From: Sandaracinus amylolyticus
Lineage (GTDB): Bacteria > Myxococcota_A > Polyangia > Polyangiales > Sandaracinaceae
Reading direction: 5' to 3'
Length of the DNA stretch: 64,000 nucleotides
Assembly: GCF_000737325.1 (NCBI RefSeq)
Contig: NZ_CP011125.1
Location: 5,952,001 to 6,016,000, forward strand
The notes beneath the pieces are model-generated. The model saw nothing but the letters and a program-made list of their open reading frames with translations, searched no databases and had not been told where the DNA came from. Made by a program: the position numbers and the translations under genes. Below, piece after piece: positions 10,863-15,441 of this stretch. The number at the start of each line of letters is the position of its first letter. Positions within the stretch are counted from its first letter, which is position 1.

Positions 10863-12563
10863 CTACGATTTGCGACCGCGCCCGACGGGCTTCCGCGCCC
10901 GGAGCCCGAGCTGGTTGAAGCGCAGCCGCACCCGCCGCGCGCCGCTCGGATCGCGACCCGCGAGCAGCCGCTTGGCCATCGCGTCGAAGTCGCCCTTCGT
11001 CTCCACGAAGAGCCGCTCGTAGAGCTGCGCCTCGAGGCTCCGCGCGACCTCGTGCAGCGTCGCGCCGGGGCGCACGTCGAAGGCCGCGGCCACGCGAGGT
11101 CCCTTCCCGCTCGGCGTCTCGTCGGGCGCGAGCGCGCCGAGCAGCTCGCGGATCAGCTTCGCGGGGATCGGGATCGTGCGCGCCGGCTCGCCGCTCGCGC
11201 CGCGTCCTTCGCGCGCGGCCTCGAGCGCGTCGGAGAGCGCGAACACGACCGCGCTCGCGACCAGCAGCTCGAGCTCGCGCACGTTCCCCGGCCACGCATG
11301 CCGCATCAGCTCGTCGAGGCTCGAGCGCGCGAGCACGAACCCCACGCCGCGCGACGGCGGCCTCGGCGCCGCGCGACGCGCGATCTGGAGCTCGGCGTGC
11401 GGCGCCCCGCGGATCCCGGCGACCTCCATGTACTCCGCGAGCAGCGCGCGATCGGCGCCCGCCGCGAGCTTGCGACGCACGAAGACGTGCGCGAGCTCCT
11501 CGAGATCCTCGAGCCGCTCGCGCAGCGGCGGCACCACGAGGCGCGCCGCGGGGTTCAGGCGCGCGTAGAGATCGGCGCGGAACGCGCCGCTCGTCACCTT
11601 CGCGCGCAGGTCCGCGTTCGTCGCCGCGATCAGCTTCACGTCGACCGCGCGTGGCGCGGTCTCACCGAGCCGCGTGATGCGTCCGTCCTGCAGCGCGAGG
11701 AGCAACATGCGCTGCGCCTCGGGCGGCAGGTTCCCGATCTCGTCGAGGAAGAGCGTGCCGCCGCTCGCCTCCTCGAAGCGACCGCGACGATCGACCGCGC
11801 CGCTGAACGCACCGCGTGTCGTGCCGAAGAGCTCCGACGCGATCAGCGTCTCGGGGATCGCCGCGAGGTCGACCGCGACGAAGGGCCCCGTGCGCCGCGT
11901 CGCAGGATGGATGACGCGCTCCGCGAGCGCGCTCTTGCCGGTGCCGGTCTCGCCGAGGATCAACATCGGCAGCGACGTGCGCGCGAGGGCGAGCGCATCG
12001 CGGCGCAGGCGCGCCATCGTCGCGGCGCCGCCCCACGTGTACCCGCCCGCTTCCGGCGAGTCGCGACGTCGCGCGAGCACGCGCTCCACGAGCAGCGAGA
12101 GAGCGCGCGCGTCGTACGCCGCTTCTCCCGCGAGCGTCGCGAACTCGTCGACCGAGAGCGCCTCCGCCGCGTCCTCGAACGCGATCTCCTCCTCCGACGT
12201 CATCAGCACGACGGGCAGCTCGCCGCGCGCGCGCCGCAGGTGCGCGAGGATGTCGATGCCCTGGAGGCGCCGCCGACGCTCGAGGTCCGGCTCGTCGGAC
12301 GGGAGCAAGCGTTCCTCGGGCACGTCGAACGCGACGTCGAGCAGCACGACGTCGACGTCGCGGTGTCGCGCGAGCGCTTCCTCGGCCTCGCGCGCGTCGT
12401 GCGCGTGCGTCAGCGTGCACCCGGTGCGACGCGCGCAGTCCCAGCAAGGCCCGGGCTGATCGCAGCGCGTCGCGTAGTCGTAGTCGCGCAAGAGCGCGTG
12501 GGCGAGCTCGACGTAACGATCCCCGTCGTCGATGACGAGCAGCTTGGGGCGGGTGGCGCTCAT
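10863..12563 (-). CDS. Sigma-54 activator (NtrC-type) with Cys4-insertion receiver and GAFSGA loop
   Basis: 566 residues. The receiver domain (1-165) has the acidic pair at Asp12/Asp13 and phosphoacceptor Asp76 in VVLLDVAFD. It carries two insertions: Cys34, 40, 43 and 49 (C-x5-C-x2-C-x5-C) after the first helix, and a charged loop at 80-100. The AAA+ domain has Walker A GETGTGKS (204-211), Walker B TLFLDE and a sigma-54 contact loop GAFSGA at 251-256, in place of the usual GAFTGA. The C-terminal LFVETKGDFDAMAKRL...RFNQLGL resembles a Fis-type helix-turn-helix. Its ATG overlaps the upstream stop (ATGA). The cysteines suggest metal or redox input, which is inference. Confidence 0.9.
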   Translation of the reverse strand: MSATRPKLLVIDDGDRYVELAHALLRDYDYATRCDQPGPCWDCARRTGCTLTHAHDAREAEEALARHRDVDVVLLDVAFDVPEERLLPSDEPDLERRRRLQGIDILAHLRRARGELPVVLMTSEEEIAFEDAAEALSVDEFATLAGEAAYDARALSLLVERVLARRRDSPEAGGYTWGGAATMARLRRDALALARTSLPMLILGETGTGKSALAERVIHPATRRTGPFVAVDLAAIPETLIASELFGTTRGAFSGAVDRRGRFEEASGGTLFLDEIGNLPPEAQRMLLLALQDGRITRLGETAPRAVDVKLIAATNADLRAKVTSGAFRADLYARLNPAARLVVPPLRERLEDLEELAHVFVRRKLAAGADRALLAEYMEVAGIRGAPHAELQIARRAAPRPPSRGVGFVLARSSLDELMRHAWPGNVRELELLVASAVVFALSDALEAAREGRGASGEPARTIPIPAKLIRELLGALAPDETPSGKGPRVAAAFDVRPGATLHEVARSLEAQLYERLFVETKGDFDAMAKRLLAGRDPSGARRVRLRFNQLGLRARKPVGRGRKS

Positions 12564-12925
12564 GACGTCCGTTCGCGCGCGATCGCGCGCAGCGTCTCCT
12601 CGATCGCGCGCGCGTCGCGGGCGATCGCGCTCAGCGCAGCCGCGTCCCCGGCGCGCGCGTCGGCCTCGCGCGCGTCGATCGCACGAAGGCGCGTGCGCAC
12701 GTCGTCGAGCCGCGCGTCGGGCGCGATCGCCGCGAGCGGCCGCGCGAGCTCCTCGAAGCGCGCCGATGCACGCGCCCCGCGGTACGTCTCGTACACGTCG
12801 CGCAACAACATCGACGCGAAGAGCCCGTCGATCATCTGCCCGTCGCGAAGGTTGCGCGCGGTGCGCGCGACGTACTTGCCGACGTCGTGCAGCAGCGTCG
12901 CGGCGAGCCGTCGCGCCTCGCTCAT
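12560..12925 (-). CDS. Small helical protein with HDVGKY motif (HPt-like or HD-like), in phosphorelay operon
   Basis: 121 residues, starting at the ATG that overlaps the upstream receiver gene's stop. The sequence is nearly all helical. The only striking motif is LLHDVGKYVARTARNL at residues 11-26. Two readings are possible. It may be a short HD-type fragment, since HDxGK is seen in HD-GYP and HDOD proteins, but no further metal ligands are present. Or it may be a histidine-phosphotransfer or DHp-like helix with His14 as acceptor. Its place between two receiver genes and after a histidine kinase favours a phosphotransfer role, but this is inference. Confidence 0.7.
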   Translation of the reverse strand: MSEARRLAATLLHDVGKYVARTARNLRDGQMIDGLFASMLLRDVYETYRGARASARFEELARPLAAIAPDARLDDVRTRLRAIDAREADARAGDAAALSAIARDARAIEETLRAIARERTS

Positions 12926-13359
12926 CGCGCGACTCCGAGCGCCTCGCGGATCGCCGCCGCGTCGAAGCCGGGCACCGCGCGCACGTCGCCGTAGAGACGA
13001 CGCAGGTTCGCGAGCCGCTGCGCCGGGAAGTCGTGCACGAAGAGCGCGGGCTGCGCGTGACCGGCGCGTCGCAGCTCCGCGAGCACCAGCGTGCCCTGCT
13101 GATCCTTCAGCCACCGCAGCGCACGCGCGCGATCACCGCCGAACAGGCGGCGCGCCGTGTCCTCGAGATCGCCGACGAGCGCCTCCTGCGGCGCGCGCTC
13201 GAACCGCAGATCGACGAGGAACGCGTCGAAGCGCGTCTCCGCCGCGCGCGACAGCGCTTCGGACGCGGAGTGCGCCGCCGCGATATCGCACGCATCGGCC
13301 AGGAAGAGCCGCGCGAACTCCTCGTACTCCTGCCCGTCTTCGATCAGCAGGATCTTCAC
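12922..13359 (-). CDS. Divergent stand-alone receiver (pseudo-receiver-like) protein
   Basis: 145 residues. It begins MKILLIEDGQEYEEF, with the acidic pair Glu7/Asp8, and has Asp50 in FLVDLRF as the likely phosphoacceptor. A segment of about 40 residues (rich in Glu, Arg and Leu) is inserted after it. The usual Thr/Ser after beta-4 is in LFVHDFP, so His takes that place. The conserved Lys of KPF is replaced in RAVPGF. These changes imply that phosphorylation-coupled switching is altered or lost. Both ends overlap neighbours by four bases (ATGA), so it is translationally coupled in the operon. Confidence 0.85.
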   Translation of the reverse strand: MKILLIEDGQEYEEFARLFLADACDIAAAHSASEALSRAAETRFDAFLVDLRFERAPQEALVGDLEDTARRLFGGDRARALRWLKDQQGTLVLAELRRAGHAQPALFVHDFPAQRLANLRRLYGDVRAVPGFDAAAIREALGVAR

Positions 13360-14915
13360 GCGGCCTCCGCGCGCGACGAGGGCTCGTCGTACACACGAAA
13401 GAAGCGCAGCGCGACCGCCTTCGACCAGCCCGTCTCACCCGGCTCGACCACGATCGCGCCATCGTATCGGCTCAGCGCCGCGGTCACGAGCCCGAGCCCG
13501 CTGCCCACGCGTCGCTCGTAGATCGCCTCGGTCGTCAGCGCGTCGGGGCTCGTGTCGTGCACCCGCACCACGACGTTCTCCTCGCCCGTCGGCTCGAGCT
13601 CGGTGCGCACGTCGAGCCGGATGCGACGCGGCGCATCGCTCCGACCCACCGCGAGGATCGCGTTGCGCACCACGTTCTTCAGCACGAGCACGAGATCGAC
13701 CCGGAACACCTCGATCGCCGGCGCGGGATCGGGCGCTTCGATCGCGAGTGCGTCGAGCGCCACGCGCGACGGCGCGTACTCCTTGCGCACCTCGTCGACG
13801 ACGTCTCGCAACAACCCTGCGTCGACCTTCGTGCGCACCAGCTTCGCGACGAGCGTGGCGAGCCGCCGATCGAGCGCGCGCAGCTCCTCGTGCGCGCGGC
13901 GCAGCTTCGCCATCGCCCTCGCATCGCCCGCGCGCAGCGCGCCCTCCAGCTTCGCGATCGCGACGATCGCCTTACCGGCGCGCGCGAATTCGCGATCGCG
14001 CCGATGCAGATCGAGCTCCGGCCCGAGCGCTCGCTCGAACGCGCGCAGGTGCCCGTCCCACGCATCGCGCAGCGGCTCGCCGCCGAAGAGCCGACCGCTC
14101 ACGAACTCGCGCTGCGGCACGCTCGCGCGCCCCTCCGCGAGCGCCTCCACCGCGCTCGCGACCGCGCCGATGCGATGCTTGAGCAGCTCGTGCCGCAGGC
14201 CCGACACGAGGTACGCGATCGCCGGATGCAGCTCGGGGCGCGACGACGCGAGCTCTTCGAGCGACCGCATCCGACGGCTCGGCCGCAGCACCAGGAGCAC
14301 GAGCGCGATCAGCGCGAGCACCAGCGACGTGAGCGCGAGCCACGACGCGGCATCCGCGCCGCTCGTCGTGCTCGTCGCTTGCGGCTCGGGCCCCAGCGCG
14401 TCGAGCCAGGCCGCGGCCTCTGGGTCGAGCTGCTCGAGCTCGCGGCGCGCGATCGCCGCGTCGGGATCGTCGGGCACGAGCAGCAAGAACTTCCGGTACG
14501 TGAACGCCGCGCGGATGAAGAGGTGCGGGTTCTCGGGGTCCAGATCGGCGCGCCGCCGGAACGCGCGCGCGAGCGGAAGGTTCAGCCGCGGATCCATCGG
14601 CGCGAGCAAGAGCGCGTCCTCGAACGATCGCCGCGCGTCGGGATCGCCCTCGTCGACGCGCGCGATCCCCTCGCGATAGAGCGCGTCCGCCTCGGCGAGC
14701 AGTCGGTGCGCCTCGCGTCCCTCGGGCGTCGCCCGATCGATCGCGTCCCACGCGCGCCACGCGTCGGGATCGCGCTGCGTGTGCCATCGCTCTTGCGCGT
14801 CGGACCACGCGCGCGGGGCGTCACGCCACGTCTGTCGATCGCACGCGACCATCCCCATGATGGCGACGAGCACGAGAGACGCGGCGCGCGAGCGCATCGC
14901 CGATCGAGAGTGCAT
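13356..14915 (-). CDS. Membrane-bound sensor histidine kinase with lipoprotein-like N-terminus
   Basis: 519 residues. Residues 1-25 form a signal sequence ending in a Cys (AIMGMVAC), so the N-terminus may be lipidated. Residues 30-175 are TPR-like helices outside the membrane (EADALYREGIARVDEGDPDA and following). One TM helix lies at 190-209. The kinase core has His241 in SGLRHELLKH, an N-box VLKNVVRNAI and a G-box VGSGLGL; the D-box is degenerate (VHDTSPDAL). The phosphorylated partner is probably the receiver encoded next. ATG codons at 14915 and 14897 are both possible starts. First gene of a four-gene operon. Confidence 0.88.
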   Translation of the reverse strand: MHSRSAMRSRAASLVLVAIMGMVACDRQTWRDAPRAWSDAQERWHTQRDPDAWRAWDAIDRATPEGREAHRLLAEADALYREGIARVDEGDPDARRSFEDALLLAPMDPRLNLPLARAFRRRADLDPENPHLFIRAAFTYRKFLLLVPDDPDAAIARRELEQLDPEAAAWLDALGPEPQATSTTSGADAASWLALTSLVLALIALVLLVLRPSRRMRSLEELASSRPELHPAIAYLVSGLRHELLKHRIGAVASAVEALAEGRASVPQREFVSGRLFGGEPLRDAWDGHLRAFERALGPELDLHRRDREFARAGKAIVAIAKLEGALRAGDARAMAKLRRAHEELRALDRRLATLVAKLVRTKVDAGLLRDVVDEVRKEYAPSRVALDALAIEAPDPAPAIEVFRVDLVLVLKNVVRNAILAVGRSDAPRRIRLDVRTELEPTGEENVVVRVHDTSPDALTTEAIYERRVGSGLGLVTAALSRYDGAIVVEPGETGWSKAVALRFFRVYDEPSSRAEAA

Positions 14916-14923
14916 CAGCGTGT

Positions 14924-14942
14924 GATCGCTTGGGAAGCGATC
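14924..14942. promoter_or_regulatory. Inverted repeat in the shared divergent promoter region
   Basis: GATCGCTT and AAGCGATC flank a GGG spacer, 9 bp upstream of the histidine kinase ATG and 20 bp from the -35 hexamer of the divergent response regulator. The position suits an operator controlling both directions. Confidence 0.45.
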
Positions 14943-14961
14943 GAGCGTGAGCGAAGGGCGA

Positions 14962-14991
14962 TTGAATTTTGCGCCCTCATGTTGCTAGGCT
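14962..14991 (+). promoter_or_regulatory. Candidate sigma-70-type promoter for the single-domain response regulator
   Basis: TTGAAT (14962-14967) and TAGGCT (14986-14991) are 18 bp apart. The local stretch is unusually AT-rich for this genome. The coding start is 37 nt further on. Confidence 0.5.
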
Positions 14992-15027
14992 GCCCCTCTG
15001 CCCGGGGGGGCGGGAGTGGGGGGTAAA

Positions 15028-15441
15028 ATGGACATGGCGAGCATCTCGACCGAGAAGCCCGCTCGGCAGGGGCGCCGTCGGCGTCTCCTGATCGTCGACG
15101 ACGAGCCGCACCTCGCGCGGACGCTTCAGATCCTGCTCGGCGACGAGCACGACGTGGACGTGGTCACGTCGGGATCCGCAGCACGCGAGCGGCTCGAGCG
15201 CGACGCGAGCTTCGATGCGATCCTCTGCGACCTCGCGATGCGCGACGTCTCGGGGATGGACCTTCACGACTGGCTCTCGGGCACCCTGCCCGACGTCGCC
15301 GCCCGCATGATCTTCATGACGGGCGGGGCGTACACGCCGGAGGCGCGCGCGTTCCTCGATCGCGTGCCCAACCCGCGCGTGGAGAAGCCGTTCCGCCTCG
15401 AGGAGCTGCAAGCGCTCGTGCGAGACGTCGCCGAGAGCTGA
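15028..15441 (+). CDS. Single-domain response regulator
   Basis: 137 residues from the ATG at 15028, which has GGAGTGGGGGG ending 4 nt upstream; a GTG 12 nt earlier is less likely. All receiver residues are present: Asp24/Asp25, phosphoacceptor Asp68 in ILCDLAMRD, Thr98 in FMTGG and Lys120 in VEKPF. There is no output domain. It closely resembles the receiver domains found at the C-terminus of hybrid kinases. It is divergent from the histidine kinase operon and shares its regulatory region. It may serve as the competent receiver that the operon's own degenerate receiver is not. Confidence 0.92.
   Translation: MDMASISTEKPARQGRRRRLLIVDDEPHLARTLQILLGDEHDVDVVTSGSAARERLERDASFDAILCDLAMRDVSGMDLHDWLSGTLPDVAARMIFMTGGAYTPEARAFLDRVPNPRVEKPFRLEELQALVRDVAES

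Follow-up and report, generated by a model that had tools for sequence, protein, structure and literature searches.

A candidate four-protein phosphorelay in Sandaracinus amylolyticus and other Myxococcota

A locus of Sandaracinus amylolyticus raises the question of whether four overlapping genes, encoding a histidine kinase (HK), a single-domain receiver (REC), a small helical protein (SMALL) and a sigma-54 activator (EBP), make up a phosphorelay, as a first-pass annotation of the same DNA had proposed. The locus lies in a window of 64,000 nucleotides (contig NZ_CP011125.1, positions 5,952,001 to 6,016,000), in a genome consisting of a single contig of 10,327,335 bases in which HK is present once. 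From comparisons of sequences across the phylum Myxococcota, a four-step phosphorelay running from HK-His to REC-Asp, SMALL-His and EBP-Asp is probable: the set recurs, SMALL is related to the DHp domain of the kinase and the acceptors are invariant, from which we infer phosphotransfer. Somewhat less firmly, we favour the view that this is an undescribed, Myxococcota-wide phosphorelay with a phosphotransfer domain type of its own, an extra-helix DHp that occurs within the kinase and, by itself, as a carrier, and with two related Lys-less receivers. The four open reading frames (ORFs; lengths in amino acids, aa) and their predicted phospho-acceptors are:

13356..14915, minus strand: HK, histidine kinase, ORF of 519 aa
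14190..14192, minus strand: acceptor His242 of HK, in LRHELLKHRIGA, conserved in the HK alignment
12922..13359, minus strand: REC, single-domain receiver, ORF of 145 aa
13210..13212, minus strand: acceptor Asp50 of REC (LVDLRFER), invariant (78/78) at alignment position 53
12560..12925, minus strand: SMALL, helical protein, ORF of 121 aa
12887..12889, minus strand: candidate acceptor His13 of SMALL (LLHDVGKYVARTARN), conserved in the SMALL alignment
10863..12563, minus strand: EBP, sigma-54 activator, ORF of 566 aa
12336..12338, minus strand: acceptor Asp76 of EBP (VLLDVAF), conserved in 65/65

The ORFs, their coordinates and the order kinase, receiver, small protein, activator agree with the first-pass annotation, as do overlaps of exactly four bases at all three junctions; these had all been given as ATGA, which holds for REC/SMALL (12922-12925) and SMALL/EBP (12560-12563), but HK/REC (13356-13359) reads GTGA. 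Among these window proteins, EBP alone is confidently annotated by Pfam (PF00158, sigma-54 interaction AAA+, 184.9 bits); HK (HATPase_c, 18.7 bits, cut-off 26.4) and REC (Response_reg, 19 bits, cut-off 30.2) fall below the cut-offs, and SMALL has no Pfam or NCBIfam family match.

Recurrence of the four genes

A sample of 377 genomes of the phylum was searched with the REC profile, accepting matches at E 1e-10 or better, and 107 genomes gave a match. Sixty of the matching loci were fetched, and the SMALL profile was iterated before scoring; all four genes were present in 46, REC alone in 9, and HK-REC near contig ends in 3, while 2 were without SMALL. Together with 14 loci of the window clade, this gave 60 loci with all four genes (58 independent, as two come from repeat records of an identical or nearly identical genome). 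Because the same set recurs phylum-wide, it is not a chance assembly, and the expectation that the four genes would stay together in Myxococcota was borne out. Within the same order, 14 of the 183 genomes gave a SMALL match; in 13 loci SMALL (38-87% identical) is accompanied by REC (61-92%) and EBP (52-95%), with HK recognisable in ten of them, and both the LRHELLKHR motif of the kinase and HDV.K of SMALL are invariant in the loci of this order. On occurrence outside the phylum, a narrow pattern scan gave 15 loci, nearly all of which carry myxobacterial or deltaproteobacterial labels.

Gene order among the four-gene loci was SMALL-EBP-HK-REC in 41, HK-REC-SMALL-EBP in 12 and SMALL-EBP-REC-HK in 5, with one each of two rearranged forms. 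The order had been read as fitting a relay; it is permuted in relatives, the commonest form starting with SMALL-EBP, and was discarded as evidence for relay order. SMALL lies immediately 5' of EBP on the same strand in every locus having both (63/63). Profile searches of the 377 genomes found both SMALL and REC in 91, REC only in 16, SMALL only in 5 and neither in 265, counts that are not corrected for ancestry. Among 16 regions around SMALL lying apart from REC or in REC-less genomes, most keep EBP right after SMALL, so that split loci usually retain this pair, and two have HK further downstream of SMALL-EBP. Judged from these arrangements, the locus breaks and permutes as two pairs, SMALL-EBP and HK-REC.

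One family (f40) is often split, with REC alone and SMALL-EBP on another contig (L057, L058, L059, L061, L062, L113-L117, L126-L128). HK and REC are about 1.2-1.5 kb apart in some Sandaracinaceae (L028, L040, L050).

SMALL and the DHp domain of the kinase

HK comprises an N-terminal signal peptide with a lipobox-like Cys, an extracytoplasmic TPR-type region, one transmembrane helix at about 190-208, an extended DHp domain and a Bergerat-type ATPase domain. The HK sequences have the signal peptide before the TPR region and a single transmembrane helix after it, and TPR profile matches in the N-terminal region were obtained in distant relatives only. The acceptor His is conserved in 66/66 (Glu, 65/66; Lys, 64/66), as are the N-box and G-box residues of the ATPase domain. 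The cytoplasmic part was modelled by AlphaFold2 with a pLDDT of 89.9, and the predicted fold resembles kinase catalytic domains (Z about 16 over 140 residues, model residues 146-295). The model has helices at 13-46, 52-63, 68-83, 94-108, 110-114 and 118-146, the first DHp helix bearing His242 and the last continuing into the ATPase domain. A standard HisKA DHp hairpin is without such additional helices; on this basis, and with the catalytic-domain match, the modelled helices between first and last are additions to the standard hairpin. In another family (f56; L054, 6325-9096), the kinase core lies close to the N-terminus and is followed by a long C-terminal part unmatched in Pfam, and there is no N-terminal TPR sensor.

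SMALL is much more variable in sequence than REC or EBP. The one conspicuous His that had been pointed out in this 121-residue protein proved invariant (62/62), followed by Asp in 62/63 and Lys in 59/63, with Arg in the other 4, and among 36 diverse members no residue but His13 is invariant. The H-box-like motif of SMALL, HD[L/V]GKY, resembles [R/H]HE.[L/I]KH of the kinase. Alignment of the SMALL profile (63 sequences) with the kinase DHp profile (66) gave a score of 38.8 (P 6.5e-6, probability 85, 118 columns), placing His on His and Lys on Lys. As controls, 100 column shuffles reached at most 13.7, reversed alignments gave 10.3 and 11.9, and comparison of SMALL with other domains of the locus gave 9.8 (kinase ATPase domain) and 15.7 (REC). 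When the H-box was cut from both profiles, the score was still 30.3 (shuffles at most 16.1, reversed 10.1).

AlphaFold2 predicted SMALL as an all-helical bundle over the whole 121 aa (mean pLDDT 97), with helices at 3-20, 34-45, 53-67, 71-85, 87-91 and 95-120. Compared as lists, the helix series of the SMALL and HK models agree, including a 5-residue helix preceding the last long helix. By profile comparison, SMALL is kin to the kinase DHp domain but stands alone, and it is predicted to be a histidine phosphotransferase. Canonical HPt (PF01627) gave no Pfam match in the 17 members scanned, and no meaningful match was found among PDB sequences. The fold search with SMALL alone returned generic helical bundles only, and among the matches listed no phosphotransferase is named but a weak rice one, an absence that excludes nothing; as to the HPt four-helix fold, the bundle of SMALL matched unrelated bundles too. 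A second, weaker SMALL-like ORF (1e-9; L125, 8729-9028) without EBP occurs in a genome that also holds the full locus.

The relay and its rivals

REC retains an acidic pair (E7, D8) and the acceptor D50; as the first-pass annotation had described, His replaces the Ser/Thr and the switch Lys is missing. The acidic pair is conserved in relatives; these mostly have His, Thr or Tyr at the Ser/Thr site, and the whole family has lost the Lys. In EBP, Asp12, Asp13, Asp76 and Thr122 are each conserved in 65/65, and the Lys is again absent. REC has a beta3-alpha3 insertion and is a close relative of the EBP receiver (profile score 108); in both, inserted residues separate the acceptor Asp from the QG that opens the next helix. 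In family f45 (L108-L110), a REC-like receiver has none of SMALL, EBP and HK close by and may be another use of the same receiver.

Under the relay, the membrane kinase, with its extracytoplasmic TPR-type sensor, would autophosphorylate His242 on the extra-helix DHp, and the phosphate would pass to Asp50 of REC, which would act as a carrier only; REC is proposed to have lost the allosteric switch residues because it only passes phosphate on. SMALL, a DHp relative without an ATPase domain, would accept the phosphate on His13 and hand it to Asp76 of the EBP receiver, and phosphorylated EBP would then activate sigma-54 promoters. We infer each phosphotransfer step, its direction and the effect on EBP from the sequences. 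The gene pairs HK-REC and SMALL-EBP fit the first and last steps. The intermediary receiver of CckA does not respond allosterically (PMC9981736), a precedent that fits a REC without Thr and Lys and an EBP that keeps its Thr (65/65). Given the kinship of the two receivers and the insertion type that they share, a single DHp-type surface could suit both.

Several points weigh against this relay. Between two tool alignments, the SMALL-DHp match was weaker (score 29.7, probability 25, P 7.5e-4), and comparisons with sub-clades or smaller subsets gave modest scores of 24-27; the result depends on alignment depth, but its direction was constant in every comparison made. The fold of SMALL is a common helical bundle, so that structural matches give no pointer to phosphotransferase function. 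REC occurs without SMALL in a few genomes (f45), and two EBP-HK-REC loci have no adjoining SMALL, both genomes holding it elsewhere. Loss of the Lys in both receivers is unusual, and it obscures how EBP, taken to be the terminal receiver, would be activated.

The rival that survives best makes SMALL no carrier but a DHp-like partner of EBP (or REC), acting as adaptor, inhibitor or phosphatase, with HK phosphorylating EBP and/or REC directly. SMALL is tied to EBP wherever both are found, as any dedicated partner would be, it varies far more than REC or EBP, like a binding protein, and phosphatase activity is possible for DHp domains. A mere adaptor, however, would not need His13, the only residue that the 36 diverse members share, and HisKA-type phosphatases use E/D-x-x-T/N after the His, whereas SMALL has D-x-x-K; this explanation is considered unlikely. 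Still less probable is a branched two-component system, in which HK would phosphorylate EBP directly and REC, with or without SMALL, would be a phosphate sink or a kinase-tuning pseudo-receiver. The absence of Thr and Lys from REC would suit such a role, and the kinase might recognise both of two closely related receivers, but the acceptor Asp (78/78) and the acidic pair of REC are invariant, and a sink leaves a DHp relative beside EBP unexplained. That SMALL is an HD-type hydrolase, as LLHDVGKY suggests by eye and as would by the first-pass annotation speak against a relay, was rejected as highly improbable, since 17 members scanned against Pfam gave no HD profile match, the ligand pattern H...HD...D is absent (His13 is close to the N-terminus, upstream of it there is no conserved metal-ligand His, and no other His is conserved), the model is all-helical and the profile matches the kinase DHp.

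Known systems and neighbouring features

The logic of the relay is known already from Spo0 and CckA-ChpT-CtrA. Spo0B has a C-terminal domain, and Spo0F retains Thr and Lys. Like the Bacillus Spo0 relay (KinA-Spo0F-Spo0B-Spo0A), the locus has a separate kinase, a single-domain receiver, a DHp-like putative phosphotransferase and an output regulator, in the series His-Asp-His-Asp; unlike Spo0B, SMALL, at 121 aa, has a hairpin with additional helices and lacks a second domain, unlike Spo0F, REC is without Thr and Lys, and the sigma-54 activator as output and the four genes lying together also differ from Spo0. The four-helix bundle of Spo0B is formed by hairpins of two subunits, and ChpT retains a degenerate Bergerat domain (PMC3433190). 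A second, degenerate ATPase-like domain of the Spo0B/ChpT type is absent from SMALL, in which the helical bundle fills the 121 aa. The CckA-ChpT-CtrA/CpdR relay of Caulobacter is similar in its DHp-resembling phosphotransferase and in an intermediary receiver without allosteric response (PMC9981736), but that receiver is fused to CckA and there is no sigma-54 output.

With the NtrB-NtrC type, the locus shares a histidine kinase and a receiver-AAA+ sigma-54 activator; two more proteins between kinase and activator, and Lys-less receivers, set it apart. In LuxU/LuxO relays a phosphotransfer protein feeds an NtrC-family sigma-54 activator, as proposed here, but there the kinases are hybrid and LuxU belongs to the canonical HPt proteins, whereas SMALL has no HPt profile match and its motif differs from that of HPt proteins. 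The first-pass annotation knew of no described system with this exact set, and full-text literature searches on myxobacteria likewise gave none, most subscription papers being outside their coverage and priority thus not proven. Few phosphotransfer proteins are counted in a census of two-component genes in myxobacteria that relied on domains (PMC4603909); judged from profile scores, it would likely miss SMALL. When signalling systems are counted by domain profiles, a phylum-conserved relay can go unseen. Related DHp domains in kinase and putative carrier of one locus offer a handle on the origin of phosphotransferases from kinases, and two Lys-less receivers in one locus a handle on the division of carrier and output roles.

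EBP consists of a receiver with a Cys4 insert, an AAA+ domain with a GAFSGA loop and a divergent C-terminal region, presumed to bind DNA. Across the window clade the contact loop reads GAFSGA, and distant relatives mostly have GAYTGA, in place of GAFTGA; the C-terminus is conserved (GDF.AMA..LL...RRVR.RFNQLGL) without a Pfam HTH match, and in both respects EBP may depart from the NtrC family. Sigma-54 promoter sites within the 64-kb window were not above chance, and a search for a conserved target gene adjoining the locus found only clade-specific neighbours, with one large neighbour match group not identified. Two further features are:

15016..15441, plus strand: REC2, divergent receiver, ORF
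12417..12464, minus strand: Cys34, 40, 43 and 49 of the EBP receiver, a C-x5-C-x2-C-x5-C insert seen in the sequence

REC2, which had been called intact, does keep the canonical residues, and it is similar to the receiver domains found in EspA and EspC, two hybrid kinases. It had also been counted as part of the set; lying beside the locus only in part of the window clade and in one distant locus, it was rejected as a general fifth component. The four Cys that had given EBP its description as a Cys4-receiver activator are real, but as a general trait they did not hold, being found in 22/65 relatives. The insert is possibly a metal site, judging by its Cys pattern, and is confined to the window clade and family f56.

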